DNA of 64,000 nt, taken from NCBI GenBank assembly GCA_030426085.1, contig JAUHYW010000001.1, positions 124,001 to 188,000 on the forward strand, read 5' to 3'. The position numbers were made by a program, and so were the translations under genes. Shown here piece after piece: positions 23,667 to 48,338 of this stretch. The notes below the pieces were generated by a model, which worked only from the letters and a program-made list of their open reading frames with translations, made no database searches and was not told the DNA's origin. Every line of letters begins with the position of its first letter. The stretch's first letter is position 1. This stretch comes from a bacterium. Its GTDB lineage: Bacteria; Myxococcota_A; Bradymonadia; UBA7976; UBA1532.

Positions 23667-26600
23667 TCAGCCCCGCACCACGATGCGCTCCCGGGCGTGT
23701 TCCCGGATGCGGGCGAGGCCGTCCTGCAACGCCGCGTAGCCATCGGCCCCCGAGCCGTCGCGCACCGCGGTGACGGTCAGGGCGAGGGTGGTCACCTCTG
23801 CCCCCCGGCCGATGATCATCGAGCGCACCCGGCCGAACGCCCGGTCGATCTCCTCGGCCAGCGTGGCGCAGTGCTCGGGGCCGGCGAGGAAGACGAAGCC
23901 ATGGGCCGTGTGATGCCCCAGAAACGCCCGGTCGTCGGCGTACTCCCGCAGCACCTGATGCACCAGCTCGGCGGTCTGGGCCATCACCTGGTGACCCCAC
24001 AAGAGCCCCAGCCGCTCCATGCCCGCCGTCAGGCCCTCCATGTCGATGACCCCGCAGGCGAACGGCTGCTGGTCGCGCATGCGGGCCTGGATCTCGCGCT
24101 GCACCTCGCGGGCGCCGGGCAGCACCGACAGGCTGTCGATGCCCGGCCGGCGGTTGGCGGCGAGGCGGGCCCGGACCTCGAACAGCGTCGTCTGGCGGTC
24201 GGCGTCCCGGGCGAGCAGATCGTCGCCCGGGGGGCCGTCGGCGTGGGTCGGCAGCACCGCGACCGGGGCGTCGGTCCGGGCGGCCAGCTCGGCCTCGAGC
24301 GCGGCGGCCCCCGGCAGCGCCCGGTCGAGCACCAGCAGGTCGGGCAGCAGCCGGTCGATCCGGGCCCGGGCGGCGTCGACGGTCTCGGCGAGGTAGGTCA
24401 GGTAGTCCCCCGCGTCGAGGCGCCCGGCGAGCTTGCTGGCCCAGTTGCGGTCGCTGTCGGCCACCAGCACCCGCTGCCGGCGCCGCTCGCGCTGGCGGGC
24501 GACGACCATGTTGAGCGCGCTGCCGAGCAGGGCGGTGTCGTGGGGGATCTCGAGCAGCAGATCGACCGCCGGCGGGGGCGGGGAGCCCATCGGCAGCATC
24601 GCGATGACCGTCAGCCCCTGGCGGGTGGCCAGATCGGCGAGCACCTCCCGGCCGATGGTGCCGTCGACGTCGACGCACAGCGCCGCGATGGGGTCGCACT
24701 TCTCGAACGCCGCCCGCACCGCCTCGGCCTCGCCCGGCACGACCCGCGAGCGGAAGCCGAGGCCGAGCAGCAGGGCCTTGACCGCGTAGCCCTCCATCTC
24801 GTCGCCGGTGATCACCAGCACCGGGCGGTCGCCCAGCGCGGCCACCGGGCGGGCCTCGTCGGCCTTGCGCCCGCTCTCGGGGGTCACCGCCGGCAGGCTG
24901 AACAAGAAGGTCGTGCCCCGCCCGGCGGCGCTCTCGACCCAGATCTCGCCGTGGTGCCCCTGAATGATGGTGCGGCAGATCGACAGCCCCAGCCCGGTGC
25001 CCAGCGGCCGCCCGCCGACCGTGGCGCTGCCCTGGCCCTGCTCGAACGGCTTGAAGATGAGCTCGAGCGAGCCCTCGGGGATCTCGGCCCCCGAGTTGTG
25101 CACCGCGACCACGTACAGGTCGGGCACGGCGAAGGCGGCGAAGATCGAGACCTTGATCGTGCCTTCGCGGGGGGTGAACTTGAACGCGTTGGTGAGCAGG
25201 TTGCTGAGCACCTGCCCCAGCCGGTCGCGGTCGGCCTGACACCACAGGCCGCCCAGCGGGCACTCGAAGGTCAGCTCGACGCCCTTCTCGATGGCCAGCG
25301 GCTGAAAGCTGCGCACCGCGGCCTCGACCACCGGGTCGAGGTGCACCGGCTGCATGCGCATGGGCAGCTTGCCGACCTCCATCTTGGCCAGGTCGAGCAT
25401 GTCGTCGACCAGCCCGTTGAGCTTGATGCACGAGCTCTTGGCCATCGCCAGGTAGTCCTGCTGCCGCGGTTGCAGAGGCCCGACGACGCCCTTGGCCAGC
25501 AGGTCGACCACCCCGCCGATGCTCGTCAGCGGGCTGCGCAGCTCGTGGGTGATGATGCGCACGAAGTCCTCGCGGCCCCGCTCGGCGCGCTTGAGCACCG
25601 TCACGTCGCGCACCACCGTCAGCACGCCCACCTGCCGCCCGCCGTGATCCCGCACCTGGGCGAAGAGCACCTCGAGGTCGCGGTCGCCCCGGCGGAACTC
25701 GCGCCACGTCGGGCCCTCGCCCCGGCCGATCTGGCGCAGCACGTCCAGGCTCTGCAAGCCCAGCGCCGAGACGATGTGGGAGAACTCGGGCAGCGTGCCC
25801 TCGCCCAGCCCCAGCAGCTCGCGGGCCATCGAGTTGACCAGCGTCACCGCGCCGCTCTCGTCGGTGAGCACGACCCCCTCGGTCATCGCCTCGACCATCA
25901 GCTCGATGCGCCGCAGCTCGTCCAGCCGCCGGGTGTAGAGCCGGGTCAGCGTATCCTGGAGCTGATCGCGCCAGACCTCGAACAGCTCCTGCTCGTCGGG
26001 CTCGAGCGGCTGGCCCTCGGCCCGCACCAGCACCAGCAGGCCGCGCAGCTCGCGGTCGACGAAGACCGGCATCGTGGGGGCGTCGTCCCGCGGGGCGTGG
26101 GCGGTGCTGCCGTCGATGGTCTCGGGCTCGACGGTGAAGTCGAAGTCGTCGGGCAGCGAGCGGGCGGCGATGCGCTCGTAGGCCTCGTAGATCCAGTAGT
26201 TCCAGCCGGCCCACTCGGTGGTCGTCATCGGCTGGTCGGGCTCGAGCACCCCGTGGCCCAGCGCCTTGCCCTCGGGGCGCAGGTCGAGCACCGCCAGGGC
26301 CGCCCGGCAGCGCAGGCGGCGGCGCAGGCTCTCGAGCACCAGCCGCAGCGCGTCGGCCGGATCCTTGCAGTCGACGAGCGAGCGCAGCAGCCGATACTGC
26401 CCGCTCACCGCGTCCACCTGGGCCTTGAGGCGGGCGGTCAGCCGGGCCCGATCGGCCTCGAGCCGGCTGGCCTGCACCGCGTTGCGCACCGCCAGGATCA
26501 GCTCGGTGCGGCCGTCCTCGGTCAACAGCGTCTTGTGCTTCTCGAAGTAGTGGAAGACCCGCCCCCCGGCCAGGATCTCGACGAGCTGCTCGTCGCTGGT

Positions 26601-26861
26601 GCGGCCCGAGAGCAGGATGCAGCGCAGGCCGGCGGTCTCGGGGTTGCGCTTGACCTCGGCGATGAGCGCGTCCCCCGACATGCGGGGCATCTTCTGGTCG
26701 GTGATGAGCGCGTCGAAGCGGCTGCGCTCGAGCCGGGCGAGGGCCTCGCTGCCGGTGAACGCGGCGGTGATCTCGAACTCCCGCCGCAGCACCCGTCGGA
26801 GCTGGAGCTGGTCGTCCTCGCTGTCGTCGACGATCAGGACCCGTCCGCTGCGTTCGCTCAT
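23667..26861 (-). CDS. Hybrid sensor histidine kinase: REC-GAF-PAS-HisKA-HATPase-REC-like-degenerate GGDEF
   Basis: 1064 residues, soluble, starting at the ATG at 26861. An N-terminal receiver (1-125) has the acidic pair D12/D13 and phospho-acceptor D55 in LITDQKMPRMSG. A GAF-like domain (about 150-300) and a PAS domain (about 310-420, AMTEGVVLTDESGAVTLVNS) follow. HisKA carries the phospho-histidine in VRIITHELRSPLTS (about 435); HATPase_c ends with GTGLGLSICRTI and GRGTTFLF. After residue 660 come two receiver-like segments (RPVLVITGDEMEG; RVLVADSDRNWASKL) and a C-terminal GGDEF-like fold in which the signature is replaced by GHHTAHGF, so cyclase activity is unlikely. Having a receiver first suggests it is controlled by another kinase. 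Confidence 0.87.
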   Translation of the reverse strand: MSERSGRVLIVDDSEDDQLQLRRVLRREFEITAAFTGSEALARLERSRFDALITDQKMPRMSGDALIAEVKRNPETAGLRCILLSGRTSDEQLVEILAGGRVFHYFEKHKTLLTEDGRTELILAVRNAVQASRLEADRARLTARLKAQVDAVSGQYRLLRSLVDCKDPADALRLVLESLRRRLRCRAALAVLDLRPEGKALGHGVLEPDQPMTTTEWAGWNYWIYEAYERIAARSLPDDFDFTVEPETIDGSTAHAPRDDAPTMPVFVDRELRGLLVLVRAEGQPLEPDEQELFEVWRDQLQDTLTRLYTRRLDELRRIELMVEAMTEGVVLTDESGAVTLVNSMARELLGLGEGTLPEFSHIVSALGLQSLDVLRQIGRGEGPTWREFRRGDRDLEVLFAQVRDHGGRQVGVLTVVRDVTVLKRAERGREDFVRIITHELRSPLTSIGGVVDLLAKGVVGPLQPRQQDYLAMAKSSCIKLNGLVDDMLDLAKMEVGKLPMRMQPVHLDPVVEAAVRSFQPLAIEKGVELTFECPLGGLWCQADRDRLGQVLSNLLTNAFKFTPREGTIKVSIFAAFAVPDLYVVAVHNSGAEIPEGSLELIFKPFEQGQGSATVGGRPLGTGLGLSICRTIIQGHHGEIWVESAAGRGTTFLFSLPAVTPESGRKADEARPVAALGDRPVLVITGDEMEGYAVKALLLGLGFRSRVVPGEAEAVRAAFEKCDPIAALCVDVDGTIGREVLADLATRQGLTVIAMLPMGSPPPPAVDLLLEIPHDTALLGSALNMVVARQRERRRQRVLVADSDRNWASKLAGRLDAGDYLTYLAETVDAARARIDRLLPDLLVLDRALPGAAALEAELAARTDAPVAVLPTHADGPPGDDLLARDADRQTTLFEVRARLAANRRPGIDSLSVLPGAREVQREIQARMRDQQPFACGVIDMEGLTAGMERLGLLWGHQVMAQTAELVHQVLREYADDRAFLGHHTAHGFVFLAGPEHCATLAEEIDRAFGRVRSMIIGRGAEVTTLALTVTAVRDGSGADGYAALQDGLARIREHARERIVVRG

Positions 26862-40358: not shown

Positions 40359-41339
40359 ATGAGCGAGTCGACATTCGTCGTGGTCAACCCGGCGAGCGCC
40401 AACGGCAAGACCGGCAAGCGCTGGGTCGAGATGGCCGCCCGGCTGCGGGGCCGCATCGGCGACTTCGAGTCGGCGATGACCGAGGCCCCCCGCCAGGCCA
40501 CCGCGCTGGTCCGCGACGCGCTGAGCAACGGCGCCCGGCACATCGTCAGCGTCGGCGGCGACGGCACCCACAACGAGGCGGTCAACGGCTTCTTCGAGGG
40601 CGGCCGGGCCATCAGCCCCGACGCCATGCTGTCGCTCATCCCCACCGGCACCGGCGGCGACCTGCGGCGCACCCTCGACCTGCCGACCGACGCCCTCGAC
40701 GCCATCGAGCACGTCGGCGAGCGCCCGGTGCCGGTCGACGTCGGCGTGATGACCTGCGACGACGGCCGGGGCGGCGAGGCGCGCCACCACTTCGTCAACA
40801 TCTCCAGCTTCGGGCTCTCGGGGCGGGTGGTCGACACCGTCAACCACACGACCAAGATCTTCGGCGGCCGGGTGAGCTTCATGCTCGGGGCGGCCCGGGC
40901 GACGGCAAAATGGCGCAACCAGCGGGTGCGCATCGTGCTCGACCCCGACACGCCCGACGCGACGACCCTCGAGCGCCGCATCTACCTCACCGCCGTCGCC
41001 AACGCCCGCTACTTCGGCGGCGGCATGAAGATCGCGCCCGACGCCGTCATGGACGACGGGCTGTTCGACGTGGTGGTGATGGGCGACTTGTCGAAGGCGA
41101 AGGTGCTGCTGAAGTCGGGCACGATCTACGACGGGACCCACCTCGCGCTCGACGAGGTCGAGCACCACCTCGCCCGGGCGGTGCGGGCCGAGGCGCTCGA
41201 CGGCGACCCGCCGATCCTCATCGACATGGACGGCGAGCAGCCGGGCGTCCTGCCGGCGACGTGGCGCCTGCTGCCGACGGCGCTGCGGCTGTGCGTCGGC
41301 CCGAAGTTCCGGGCGGCCCACGCGGAGCCCGCCGGATGA
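40359..41339 (+). CDS. Diacylglycerol/lipid kinase family protein
   Basis: 326 residues. DAGK catalytic fold: FVVVNPASANGKTGKRW, the nucleotide-binding SVGGDGTHNEAVNG, and LIPTGTGGDLRRTLDL; C-terminal domain with NARYFGGGMKIAPDA and DGLFDVVVMG. Members phosphorylate diacylglycerol, sphingoid bases or similar lipids (YegS/BmrU/DgkB). The ATG follows GGAGGAGAG. It ends as an ATGA overlap with lnt. Confidence 0.9.
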   Translation: MSESTFVVVNPASANGKTGKRWVEMAARLRGRIGDFESAMTEAPRQATALVRDALSNGARHIVSVGGDGTHNEAVNGFFEGGRAISPDAMLSLIPTGTGGDLRRTLDLPTDALDAIEHVGERPVPVDVGVMTCDDGRGGEARHHFVNISSFGLSGRVVDTVNHTTKIFGGRVSFMLGAARATAKWRNQRVRIVLDPDTPDATTLERRIYLTAVANARYFGGGMKIAPDAVMDDGLFDVVVMGDLSKAKVLLKSGTIYDGTHLALDEVEHHLARAVRAEALDGDPPILIDMDGEQPGVLPATWRLLPTALRLCVGPKFRAAHAEPAG

Positions 41340-42997
41340 GCGAGACCCCGAGCGGCGCGCGGGGCGCGTTCCTCCGCGACCTGGGGCTGGCCACCCTGGC
41401 CGGCGTGCTGACCTTCGCCGCGTTCCCCACCGCGCTGGCGCCGGATCACACCTTCTGGCCGCTCATCTGGATCAGCCACATCCCGCTGTTGTGGGTGCTC
41501 AAGGACAAGGCGCCCAAGCAGGCCTTCCGCTGGGGCCTGTACTGCGGCACGGTCATCAACGCCGGGGGCTACTACTGGATCGCGACGATGCTGGAGACCT
41601 TCGGCGGTCTGCACATCTCGGTGGGCCTGCTGGGGCTGGCGCTGCACAGCCTGTGGCTCGGCTTCATCTGGGCGCTGTGGGCCTGGGGGGTCAACCGCAT
41701 CGGCAACACCACCCGGGTGCCCATCGAGTGGTCGGTCCCGATCGTGATGGTGGCTGCCGAGTTCGCCGTCCCCCGCATCTTCCCCGCCTACATGGGCAAC
41801 AGCCAGTACCTGTTCCCGCCCATCATGCAGATCTGCGACCTGTTCGGCATCGCCGCGGTGACCTTCCTGATCTACCGGGTCAACGCGGTGGGCTTCCTGT
41901 GGGTCCGCAGCTTCAGGGAGGGCCGCCCCCGGCCCAAGCGGGCCACCGCCGTCACCGTGGCGATGCTGGCCGGGGCGCTGATCTACGGCTTCGTGCAGAT
42001 GCACCGCGTCGACGCCCGGATGGAGGCCGCGCCCAAGCTGAAGATCGGGATGGTCGAGGGCGACGTCGGCATCTTCCAGACGGCGACCCCCGACGCCATC
42101 AAGGACCACCTGCTCATTCATCAGCGGCTGTCGGCCGAGCTGGAGGCGCAGGGCGCTGAGCTCATCGTCTGGCCCGAGAGCAGCTACCGCTACGGGCACC
42201 TGCCCAAAGACGCCCGCCAATTCCCGCCGTCGAAAGCCCCACTCGTGGCCGACTGGCGCGAAGACCAGCGCAAGCGCACCCCCCGCGCCGACCGGGCCGC
42301 GCCGATGCGGGGCTTCGAGACGCCGCTGCTCTTCGGCTCGACCAGCCTCGAGAAGAGCGAGACGCCCCGCTGGGAGGGCGACGGGCCCTACACCCCGTAC
42401 AACACCGCGTGGCTGCTCGATCGGGACGGCACCGTCGTCGGCACCTACGACAAAGTCTTCCTGCTCGTCTTCGGGGAGTACGTGCCCCTCGCGAAGTACA
42501 TCCCCCAGGTCTACGAGTGGATCCCGGCCGCCGGCAACCTCGCCCCGGGCACCCGGCTCGAGGTCATCGAGACCGACATCTTCGAGGCCGAGAGCCCGCT
42601 GCGGCTGGGCGTGCTCATCTGCTACGAGGGCCTGCTGCCCCGGTTCACCCGCCCGCTGGTGGTCGAGGGGCGGCCGCACGTCCTGATCAACATCACCAAC
42701 GACGACTGGTTCGGCAAGACGGCCGAGCGCTACCTGCACCTCGCGCTGACCGTGCCCCGGGCCATCGAGCACCGGCTGGCCTTCGTGCGCAGCACGCTGA
42801 CCGGGGTGAGCGTCTTCGTCGACGCCAACGGCCGTCAGGTCTCGATGACCCGCCCCGACGACCCCGAGACGCTGATCTGGGACACCCCGCTGATGCAGTC
42901 GGCGACGGTCTACCAGCTCATCGGCGACGCGTTCTCCTGGGCCTGCCTGCTGCTGGCGCTGGGCTTCTACGGCTTCGGCCGCTGGCGCCGCCGCTGA
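41336..42997 (+). CDS. lnt: Apolipoprotein N-acyltransferase Lnt
   Basis: 553 residues. Inner-membrane enzyme that adds the third acyl chain to the N-terminal cysteine of lipoproteins. N-terminal multi-span region (about 15-220), then a periplasmic nitrilase-like domain with the triad E281 (WPESSY), K373 (TYDKVFLLVFGEYVPL) and C429 (LICYEG), and a final membrane helix ending in basic residues. The Glu-to-Lys spacing is longer than in the E. coli enzyme. The start overlaps the lipid-kinase stop. The many lipoproteins in this window fit a need for Lnt. Confidence 0.92.
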   Translation: MSETPSGARGAFLRDLGLATLAGVLTFAAFPTALAPDHTFWPLIWISHIPLLWVLKDKAPKQAFRWGLYCGTVINAGGYYWIATMLETFGGLHISVGLLGLALHSLWLGFIWALWAWGVNRIGNTTRVPIEWSVPIVMVAAEFAVPRIFPAYMGNSQYLFPPIMQICDLFGIAAVTFLIYRVNAVGFLWVRSFREGRPRPKRATAVTVAMLAGALIYGFVQMHRVDARMEAAPKLKIGMVEGDVGIFQTATPDAIKDHLLIHQRLSAELEAQGAELIVWPESSYRYGHLPKDARQFPPSKAPLVADWREDQRKRTPRADRAAPMRGFETPLLFGSTSLEKSETPRWEGDGPYTPYNTAWLLDRDGTVVGTYDKVFLLVFGEYVPLAKYIPQVYEWIPAAGNLAPGTRLEVIETDIFEAESPLRLGVLICYEGLLPRFTRPLVVEGRPHVLINITNDDWFGKTAERYLHLALTVPRAIEHRLAFVRSTLTGVSVFVDANGRQVSMTRPDDPETLIWDTPLMQSATVYQLIGDAFSWACLLLALGFYGFGRWRRR

Positions 42998-43076: not shown

Positions 43077-43805
43077 ATGCGCGCTCTCCTGATCGCCACT
43101 GTCGGTCTCCTGCCGGTCGCCGGCCGGGCCCAGCCCCCGCCACCGGCCGACGCGGCCGAGGAGGCGCCCGCCGCAGAGGTCCCCGCTGCGCCGCAGTCGA
43201 TGGGCACCCTGGTGATCGAAGCCGCCGCGGGCGTCGAGGTCCGGGTGGACGACGTCGTGATCGGTGAGACCCCGCTGCCCGGCCCGTGGACGCTCTCGCC
43301 CGGCGATCACGTCATCGAGTTGCGACCGGCGTCGGGCGAGCCCACCGTGCGCCGGGTCACGATCGCCGCCGGCCAGCAGATCGCGCTCGACCTCGGCGGC
43401 AAGAAGCCCGGCCCCGCCGCGAAGCCGGCCGCCGCGCCGGACCCCGACCCGGCCGTCGCCGAGCCCGCGCTGCCGGCCGGACCCGGCTTCCCGGTGGCCA
43501 CCGGGGGCTATATCGTCGCCGGGCTGGGGCTGCTCGGGGTCGGCGCCGGCGTCGGCCTGGGCCTGCTCGCCGATGGCTACGCCGCCGAGGCCCGCGACCT
43601 CGACCGGGCCAGCAACGACCGCGCCGACCAGCAGGCGCTGGTCGATCAGGCCGACGGCGCCGCCTTCTGGTCCAACATCTCGTACGGCGCGGGCGGGGTC
43701 ATGCTGCTCGGCGGCGCGGCGATGATCCTGCTGGCCACCGACGGCCCGCTGGGCGTCTCGGTGGCCCCCACGCCGGGCGGCGCGATGGTGGAGGGCCGTT
43801 TTTGA
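43077..43805 (+). CDS. PEGA-domain membrane protein
   Basis: 242 residues. Signal sequence (LLIATVGLLPVAGRAQ), a Pro/Ala linker, a PEGA-type beta domain (about 42-100, VEVRVDDVVIGETPLPG and SPGDHVIELRP), a second Pro/Ala linker, and two hydrophobic segments near the C-terminus (YIVAGLGLLGVGAGVGLGLL; GAGGVMLLGGAAMILLA). PEGA domains are found in surface-associated myxobacterial proteins. The stop codon abuts a 162-bp palindrome. Confidence 0.8.
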   Translation: MRALLIATVGLLPVAGRAQPPPPADAAEEAPAAEVPAAPQSMGTLVIEAAAGVEVRVDDVVIGETPLPGPWTLSPGDHVIELRPASGEPTVRRVTIAAGQQIALDLGGKKPGPAAKPAAAPDPDPAVAEPALPAGPGFPVATGGYIVAGLGLLGVGAGVGLGLLADGYAAEARDLDRASNDRADQQALVDQADGAAFWSNISYGAGGVMLLGGAAMILLATDGPLGVSVAPTPGGAMVEGRF

Positions 43806-43966
43806 GAGCTTTCCCACAAACTCCGGCGCTTCGCCCAGCACCGCCCCGAGCGCCGAGCTCGGCGTCTGTCGGCGCTCGGAATACTTCGAGTATTCCTGCG
43901 GCCTCCATCCTGGACCTCGGCGCTCGGTCCGGCACTGGGCTCGACCGTATTTCGTGGGCAAGCTCT
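43805..43966. repeat. 162-bp concentric imperfect palindrome (MITE- or REPIN-like element)
   Basis: Three inverted-repeat pairs share one centre near 43886: outer arms 43805-43820 and 43951-43966 (14 of 16 pair), middle arms 43833-43857 and 43916-43940 (21 of 25 pair), and a perfect inner hairpin GGAATACT-TCG-AGTATTCC at 43878-43896. A second smaller palindrome CGCCGAGCTCGGCG lies at 43851-43864. There is no U-run, so it is not a simple terminator. It fills the gap between the PEGA stop and the next gene. No second copy was seen here. Confidence 0.7.
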
Positions 43967-44190
43967 TGAACCGCCTGCGCCTGTCCCTGCTCGCCGGCGC
44001 CCTCGCCCTCGGCGGCGCGACCTTCGGCTGCGACCCCGACCTGCCCGGGCGGGCCTGCTCGATCGACGACGACTGCTTTCGTGACGAGCTCTGCCAGGGC
44101 ACGAGCTGCGTGCGCGGCGAGCGCGACCCCGACCCCGAACCCGACGGCGGGGCGGCCCCGGACACCGGACCCGACGCGGAGAGCGGCTGA
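43954..44190 (+). CDS. Small cysteine-containing lipoprotein
   Basis: 78 residues from the GTG at 43954, or 74 from the TTG at 43966. Signal with lipobox TFGC (C26 from GTG), then CSIDDDCFRDELCQGTSC, one unit of the DxDC...CxxGxC type, and an acidic Asp/Pro tail. The start region lies within the right arm of the palindrome, and no Shine-Dalgarno is visible, so the element may have supplied the start. It is three bases ahead of the kinase gene. Confidence 0.6.
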   Translation: MGKLLNRLRLSLLAGALALGGATFGCDPDLPGRACSIDDDCFRDELCQGTSCVRGERDPDPEPDGGAAPDTGPDAESG

Positions 44191-44193
44191 GCC

Positions 44194-46260
44194 GTGGATG
44201 CCATGGCCCCCGAACCCTTCGGCCCATACCTCCTGGCCCGCAAGATCGCCACCGGCGGCACCGCCGAGATCTTCCTCGCCCGCCGCGACGGGGCCGACGG
44301 CTTCTCCCGCCACATCGCCATCAAGCGCATCCTGCCCCAGCTCGCCGACGAGAAGGGCTTCGTGCAGCTCCTGCTCGACGAGGCCCGGCTCGCGGCCCAC
44401 CTGCACCACGGCCACATCGTGCAGATACACGACGTGGGCCAGATCGAGGGGCAGGCCTACATCGCGATGGAGTACCTGCCCGGCACCGACGTCGGGCGGC
44501 TGATGAAGCGCGCCGCCCGCCGCACCCGGCGGGTGCTGGTGGCCCACACCGACCACGAGTTCCGCAAGGCGCTGGTGCACGCGCTGCAATCGCTCGAGCG
44601 CGATCTGGAGATCGTGCCGGCCCACGACGCCGACGAGGTCGCCCGCCGCTCGGCCGACGGCCTCGTCGATCTGGCCGTCGTCGACGCCAAGCTCGCGACG
44701 CTGGTGGTCGACCGGCTGGCCTCCAACCACCCCGAGCTGCTGCGCACCGTCGTGCTGGGCAGCGCGCCCGGCCTGCGCTCGGCCTCGACGACGCTGGTCA
44801 CCTCGGACGACGACCCCCGGGTGCTCGGCGAGCTGATCGACTGCTGCCTGCGGGCGCCGATGCCGCTCGACATCGCGATGCAGATCATCCGGGCGGTGGC
44901 CGACGGCCTCGATCACGCCCACACCGCGGTGGACTACGCCGACGCGCCGCTGCACATCGTGCACCGCGACATCAACCCCAGCAACGTGCTCGTCTCGAAG
45001 AGCGGCACGGTCAAGCTGGTCGACTTCGGCATCGCCCGGGCGGCGACCACCCCCGAAGGGCGGCGCAAAGGCTTCGTCGGCACATACGACTACATGAGCC
45101 CCGAGCAGACGGCGGGCGACCCGGTCGACGCCCGCTCCGACCTGTTCTCGCTCGGCACGCTCATCCACCTGCTGATCACCGGCGAGCACCCGTACAAGGG
45201 CGATGACATGTTCGCCACCATGCGGGCCGTGCGCGAAGACCGGCCGCCGCCGCTCGACGCCCGGGTGCCGGGCACCCCGCCGCTGCTGGTCGACATCGCG
45301 ATCCGGGCCGGCGAGAAGGACCCCGCCGACCGCTACCCCTCGGCCGAAGAGATGCTCACCGACCTCGAAGAGGTCGTGCGTCGGGGGGGCATCAACCTCA
45401 GCCCCAAGCGGCTGGCGAGCTACATCCGGGCGATCTTCGGCAAAGAGGTCAAGCGCTTCGGCGTGACCACCATGAGCATGCCGGCGATCCAGATCGACGC
45501 CCAGGGCAACCCGGCCCCGGTGCACGCCCGCAAGAGCCTCGACCAGGTCGGGCGGCCGGTCGTCGACCGGGCCTCGGTCAGCGAGAAGGCTCCCATCGTG
45601 CGGGTGCCGACCAACCCCCCGCCCACCGTCGATCAGATCCGGGCGATCGGCGCCGCGCCCAGCGGCCGGCCGCCCTCGGTGCCCCCGATCCAGGCGACCG
45701 CGCCGCCCGACGCCCTCTCGTCACCGCCGAGCAGCGCGCCGCCGGTCGCTGTGGCCGACGGGCAGCCGAGCGCGCCCCGGGTCGCCGCCATCGACCCCGC
45801 CGCGGCGCGGGCCCGGATCCCGTTCACCCCGCCGGTGGGCGCCGCCTCGTCGGACGACGACGGCCCGACCCAGGTCGCCCCGCCCTCGCCCGAAATCATC
45901 GCCGCCATCGCCGCCGCGGATGGCCCGCGCAGCGCCCCGCCGCCCCGGGCCCCCGAGCCGGTCGCGATGGACGCCCCCGCCGAGCACATCGCCCGTCGGC
46001 TGGGTGCCTCGATGGGATCGGAACCCCCCCGGGCGATGCCCCCCGGGCGCCACACCGGCCCGGCCCCCATCCGGCGCACCCCGGTGGGCCAGCGGGCCTC
46101 GCTGCACTCGCTGCACTCGATCAACGCCATGGGCCCCCCGCCCAGCAGCCGCTCGGCCGCCGGTGACAGCGCGATGCGGGTCGTGCTCGGCATCGTGATC
46201 GGCGCGCTCGTCGGGCTGGCGGGCCTCTACGTGTGGTGGCGCACCGGCGCCGGCGGGTGA
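44194..46260 (+). CDS. Ser/Thr protein kinase with a receiver-like domain inserted between the lobes
   Basis: 688 residues. N-lobe: glycine loop ATGGTAEIFLARR, K44 in HIAIKRIL, E63 in the C-helix, hinge-region AMEYLPGTDVGRLMKRA (91-107). Residues about 109-221 are then inserted: RRVLVAHTDHEFRKAL, LEIVPAHDADEV, DLAVVDAKL and TVVLGSAPG, the strand order and phospho-Asp position (D164) of a response-regulator receiver, though the acidic pair is reduced. The C-lobe resumes at PLDIAMQIIRAVADGL, with HRD 257-259, NPSN and DFG (D277). A long Pro/Ala/Ser linker precedes a single C-terminal membrane helix (about 659-682), so the kinase is tail-anchored with the catalytic part in the cytosol. Start GTG 44194, or ATG 44203. 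Confidence 0.85.
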   Translation: MDAMAPEPFGPYLLARKIATGGTAEIFLARRDGADGFSRHIAIKRILPQLADEKGFVQLLLDEARLAAHLHHGHIVQIHDVGQIEGQAYIAMEYLPGTDVGRLMKRAARRTRRVLVAHTDHEFRKALVHALQSLERDLEIVPAHDADEVARRSADGLVDLAVVDAKLATLVVDRLASNHPELLRTVVLGSAPGLRSASTTLVTSDDDPRVLGELIDCCLRAPMPLDIAMQIIRAVADGLDHAHTAVDYADAPLHIVHRDINPSNVLVSKSGTVKLVDFGIARAATTPEGRRKGFVGTYDYMSPEQTAGDPVDARSDLFSLGTLIHLLITGEHPYKGDDMFATMRAVREDRPPPLDARVPGTPPLLVDIAIRAGEKDPADRYPSAEEMLTDLEEVVRRGGINLSPKRLASYIRAIFGKEVKRFGVTTMSMPAIQIDAQGNPAPVHARKSLDQVGRPVVDRASVSEKAPIVRVPTNPPPTVDQIRAIGAAPSGRPPSVPPIQATAPPDALSSPPSSAPPVAVADGQPSAPRVAAIDPAAARARIPFTPPVGAASSDDDGPTQVAPPSPEIIAAIAAADGPRSAPPPRAPEPVAMDAPAEHIARRLGASMGSEPPRAMPPGRHTGPAPIRRTPVGQRASLHSLHSINAMGPPPSSRSAAGDSAMRVVLGIVIGALVGLAGLYVWWRTGAGG

Positions 46261-46338: not shown

Positions 46339-46412
46339 GCTCGCCGTCATCCCGGACACACTCCGCAAACGACGAGACCACGCGCTGCGATGCGCTGGAA
46401 GGAGTCACCCAG

Positions 46413-48338
<1,926 letters not shown>

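Follow-up and report, generated by a model that had tools for sequence, protein, structure and literature searches.

A predicted pseudo-receiver nested in the catalytic domain of a Hanks-type Ser/Thr kinase from an uncultured myxobacterial family

In this work, we analyzed a 64,000-nucleotide stretch of contig JAUHYW010000001.1 (GenBank assembly GCA_030426085.1, positions 124,001 to 188,000; hereafter the window) and found a gene for a protein kinase whose catalytic domain is interrupted by a putative receiver-derived segment (Table 1). An earlier note on this DNA had described a complete kinase split by approximately 113 residues (109-221), and the open reading frame, strand, frame, and motifs all confirmed this description. 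The 688-residue protein comprises a kinase domain (residues ~7-398), a conserved helical extension (~404-430), and a Pro-rich low-complexity linker. Its C-terminal end, like that of most orthologs, is a hydrophobic transmembrane-like helix, and a large outside domain is absent from this protein and most orthologs (both read by eye). Pfam Pkinase matches occur in two stretches, the stronger at residues 223-342, with a gap between them at ~109-221. The catalytic set of an RD-type kinase is complete (Lys44, Glu63, HRD at 257-259, Asn264, DFG at 277-279, and SPE), and these motifs are invariant in an alignment with orthologs and insert-less kinases. With this motif set and a bilobal fold, the protein is predicted to be a membrane-tethered Hanks-type Ser/Thr kinase.

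The extra residues lie between alpha-D (100-109) and alpha-E (225-243), which makes this segment a DE kinase insert by placement; it is thus in the C-lobe beside the hinge, and not between the lobes as had been proposed. The AlphaFold2 model of residues 5-437, which cover the kinase and the insert, is confident (predicted local distance difference test, pLDDT, 91.2; predicted template modeling score, pTM, 0.91), and the whole model matches PknB kinases (template modeling score, TM, 0.89 to PDB 5u94). The activation loop has low confidence in this model and is probably flexible. Within the insert, the order of elements is beta1-alpha1-beta2-alpha2-beta3-alpha3-beta4-beta5-alpha5, namely, that of a receiver minus alpha-4, which bears out the receiver strand order noted earlier, and D164 is located at the end of beta3. 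When the insert was folded alone, the topology was unchanged, with alpha-4 again absent (pLDDT 87.6), and the nearest PDB folds of this lone model were almost all receivers, including KaiA, HupR, and FrzS. As a separate observation, the G005 ortholog (L043) has ~20 extra Pro/Ala/Arg-rich residues between beta4 and beta5, the usual place of alpha-4.

Homology to receivers was detected at the profile level. A profile built from nine orthologous inserts, searched against all PDB chains, found the HupR receiver as the top match (E 6e-5), followed by an NtrX-type receiver, and the weaker matches were also mostly receivers. Among the 379 genomes of the phylum, all matches of this profile outside the family at E<=1e-8 were canonical receivers, with acidic residues judged intact by eye on the translations. 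Aligned by hhalign with 16 receivers from the same genome, the insert profile scored 51.3 over its full length with a probability of 95.6%, and the best of 100 column-shuffled controls scored 17.6. Searches with the single insert sequence found no match in Pfam or PDB; such a negative search by itself would have misled us, because only the nine-member profile detected receivers. For single insert members, NCBIfam gave weak matches, mostly to response regulators; the PF00072 gathering cut-off was not reached, as only one of the nine members matched, at E 0.16, and the minor Pfam families PF06490, PF21155, PF21194, PF21695, PF21714, and PF22368 had no insert match at E<=1. The insert thus combines a significant profile match with a (beta-alpha)5-type topology, but lacks alpha-4. 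Together, the evidence from profiles, predicted fold, orthologs, and synteny strongly supports the assignment as a receiver-derived domain nested in a Hanks kinase.

The residues required for phosphotransfer were compared in the nine full-length orthologous inserts (that of G007 is partial). At the acceptor position, the residues are D D E E E D S D A, with D in the partial G007 insert. The first position of the acidic pair reads H H H A C C H H D and the second T T R R P P E G G; the pair is H-T in the window insert, and at most one acidic residue is left in any ortholog. Only L, V, P, M, or I occurs in place of Thr/Ser (L V L P L M I V L), and Lys is absent from its position in all (S D G D D D E P P). 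The conserved Asp, acidic pair, Thr/Ser, and Lys that define a phosphorylatable receiver of the PF00072 type are not found, and the insert fits the definition of a pseudo-receiver (PsR), namely, a domain with receiver fold or homology but without key phosphotransfer residues (PMC12632262). The alteration of the acidic pair and the late Lys, pointed out previously for this one sequence, therefore extends across the orthologs as degradation of the pair and loss of the Lys. Because the acceptor varies and the acidic pair, Thr/Ser, and Lys are lost or degraded in orthologs, phosphorylation of D164 is an unlikely mechanism. The suggestion of D164 as a phospho-acceptor thus stands for its position at the end of beta3, whereas its role as a two-component input is not supported, given the D/E/S/A variation, the degraded phosphotransfer residues, and the missing alpha-4. 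It is very improbable that the insert still functions as a receiver that accepts phosphate on D164 from a histidine kinase or acetyl phosphate and directly joins two-component and Hanks signaling. The Asp is correctly placed and is shared by several orthologs, and some receivers with replaced catalytic residues retain weak phosphorylation (PMC12632262), but the acceptor is Glu in three orthologs, Ser in one, and Ala in one, and alpha-4 is part of the usual output surface.

The invariant residues of the insert are R110, R112, R113, V114, G156, D159, L160, H179, P180, E181, R184, and G193. All except G193 are located at the N-terminal ends of the strands or close to them, on the face that points away from the former active site and through which the chain is connected to the kinase. 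From this arrangement in the model, we infer that the conserved face packs on the kinase C-lobe.

Insert-bearing orthologs were found in 10 of the 13 genomes of one uncultured myxobacterial family, with one such kinase per genome, mostly at the same locus; these genomes belong to several genera and were assembled independently. The insert is intact and in frame in the window kinase and conserved in other species. The G007 ortholog lacks the N-lobe because its match begins near a contig start. For the window and its nearest relative, the ratio of nonsynonymous to synonymous substitution rates (dN/dS) is 0.36 for the insert and ~0.27 for the kinase, and this sequence comparison indicates that the insert is under purifying selection. 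The pairwise identities of the insert track those of the kinase (Mantel r 0.87, p 1e-4), in keeping with vertical inheritance following a single insertion, and the median identity is 38% for the insert versus 62% for the kinase. No insert member was seen outside the family in the 379 phylum genomes, and no comparable insertion was found among the ~150 listed Pkinase places of the own genome, where the longest span is ~292 residues. An insert-less ortholog at the same locus was not found in G002, G004, G011, or the sister family f2; the G011 contig ends beside the locus, and elsewhere either Lnt lacks this kinase after it or no match to Lnt was detected. The idea that the insert is a functionless relic or an assembly artifact draws on rapid divergence and the missing catalytic residues and on nothing else, and we give it almost no credence: the insert is syntenic, under constraint, and has invariant residues, and no close relative was seen in which the kinase is intact while the insert is absent or has a broken frame. 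An artifact in particular was rejected given the intact, syntenic copies in independent assemblies of 10 genomes.

The order of Lnt, a PEGA-like protein, a small lipoprotein, the kinase, and DnaK is largely kept where contigs are long enough. The best matches of the small putative lipoprotein in six relatives are at the same locus, and DnaK follows the kinase in the window and at most orthologous loci, forming a stable kinase-chaperone neighborhood. The presence of Lnt, the lipoprotein, and DnaK may hint at envelope or folding stress, which is a guess from genome context.

Table 1. Features of the kinase gene and its syntenic neighbors, in window coordinates.
Feature	Position	Strand	Evidence or remark
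Predicted Hanks-type Ser/Thr kinase, 688 residues, GTG start	44194..46260	+	Open reading frame, Pfam, AlphaFold2 model, PDB fold match
Kinase N-lobe, hinge, and alpha-D, residues 8-108	44215..44517	+	
Putative pseudo-receiver insert, residues 109-221, receiver topology without alpha-4	44518..44856	+	
Asp164 codon, former phospho-acceptor position, D/E/S/A in orthologs	44683..44685	+	
Kinase C-lobe from just before alpha-E, with HRD, DFG, and SPE, residues 222-398	44857..45387	+	
Apolipoprotein N-acyltransferase (Lnt), syntenic	41336..42997	+	
PEGA-like secreted/membrane protein, syntenic	43077..43805	+	No Pfam hit; PEGA label is a reading of the sequence
Putative lipoprotein, small and Cys-rich, with lipobox-like FGC, immediately upstream of the kinase gene, syntenic	43954..44190	+	
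DnaK (HSP70), downstream of the kinase, syntenic	46410..48338	+	Start codon provisional

Other kinases and receivers were also observed in this genome. At least 152 Pkinase matches are present in 10.1 Mb, representing a very large bacterial kinome. On two contigs outside the window (C143 and C150), matches to kinases and to canonical receivers lie in open frames of the same length (1959 and 1869 residues, respectively), pointing to Ser/Thr kinases that carry a receiver fused at one end, as is usual. Within the window, two receiver-like stretches on the minus strand (~24306-24485 and 26562-26840), both in open frames of 1094 residues, comprise one Pfam receiver match and one weak insert-profile match, and probably belong to one hybrid signaling protein.

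The architecture of a pseudo-receiver nested in a kinase catalytic domain is well supported by these results, and for its mechanism we infer the following. The insert is, with fair likelihood, a phosphorylation-independent regulatory or docking module through which a bound partner or ligand would control the kinase. A receiver would have entered the kinase in a single insertion event, and its phosphotransfer chemistry and helix alpha-4 would have been lost afterward. The conserved and tethered face at the strand N-termini, formed by the RRxRRV entry and the GxxDL and HPELxR loops, would rest on the C-lobe, while the free face would bind a partner or ligand and thereby raise or lower kinase activity or bring in a substrate. 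Since no sensory domain other than the insert was recognized in the kinase protein, the insert would be its likeliest input; allosteric control of the kinase is plausible, and the family-wide conservation suggests that the kinase is controlled through the nested module. We propose more tentatively that the nested domain senses a small molecule, histidine kinase, or response regulator that directly switches the Ser/Thr kinase, possibly upon envelope or folding stress; this would be a new form of control for Hanks kinases.

Several points weigh against regulation by a bound partner or ligand. Variation of the free face among orthologs would be unexpected if all bound one conserved ligand; the insert has diverged more rapidly than the kinase, which is also in line with a looser docking role; and the interface between insert and kinase is deduced from topology and conservation in a predicted model. 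A module for docking substrates or scaffolds, which would determine specificity and localization rather than activity and resemble eukaryotic docking-platform inserts, would agree with the high sequence divergence, with the alpha-D/alpha-E site shared with fast-evolving receptor tyrosine kinase inserts (PMC8662651), and with the tendency of pseudo-receivers to act via protein-protein contacts (PMC12632262). Nevertheless, we regard such a pure docking role as unlikely, given that the modeled domain is compact and confidently placed and that the location of its most conserved residues, on the tethered face, suggests that it packs against the kinase. The prospect is poorer still for a dimerization module, in which paired pseudo-receivers would join two kinases for trans-autophosphorylation of the activation loop: dimerization is common among receivers and pseudo-receivers (PMC12632262), and activation by proximity is plausible for a membrane-tethered RD-type kinase, but the usual pseudo-receiver dimer surface includes the alpha-4 that is missing here.

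The regulatory module favored here has known counterparts for each of its parts. The insert resembles HupR/NtrX-type receivers (PF00072; PDB 2jk1, 4d6x) in near full-length profile homology, strand order, and hydrophobic core, and shares with them a DL motif before the acceptor and an HPE..R-like motif before beta4. Unlike these receivers, its phosphotransfer residues are lost or unconserved, alpha-4 is absent, it falls below the PF00072 cut-off, and it is nested in a kinase. Fusion to the end of another domain is the normal arrangement for receivers and pseudo-receivers alike. The pseudo-receivers of ShkA, CikA, and KaiA likewise have a receiver fold without phosphotransfer chemistry, and those of ShkA and CikA also sit in a kinase and control it, by binding cyclic di-GMP (c-di-GMP) in ShkA (PMC7010744) and by shielding the catalytic site in CikA (PMC6378743). 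However, both of these kinases are histidine kinases, and in both the pseudo-receiver is fused end to end with its neighbors instead of interrupting the catalytic domain; KaiA is not a kinase. A ShkA-like c-di-GMP site, located on the alpha4-beta5-alpha5 surface, is unlikely in the insert, as its model lacks alpha-4. The fungal kinase Rim15p also bears a domain of this kind, either receiver or pseudo-receiver, in which Glu often occupies the acceptor position, but this domain is C-terminal (PMC12632262).

The kinase domain has the fold of PknB-type bacterial Hanks kinases. PknB has extracellular PASTA sensors, which are absent from the window kinase. We found no literature precedent for a receiver inserted in a Ser/Thr kinase in a search that reached few subscription papers. 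Hanks kinases, pseudo-receivers, and DE inserts are known singly, and their combination is without precedent in the literature searched; independent cases of nested pseudo-receivers may exist in other bacterial kinases. The on/off switching of bacterial pseudo-receivers has been described as a mystery (PMC12632262), and deleting or swapping this insert would give a direct enzymatic readout that makes the question testable. The insert domain of receptor tyrosine kinases has the same alpha-D/alpha-E insertion point and evolves fast, with no detectable sequence similarity among the inserts of different families (PMC8662651). In comparison, the window insert is a confidently predicted pseudo-receiver fold in a bacterial kinase. 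To our knowledge, none of the receptor tyrosine kinase inserts is receiver-derived. The locus thus appears to encode a Ser/Thr kinase whose catalytic domain contains a pseudo-receiver, at the site where animal receptor tyrosine kinases evolved inserts.
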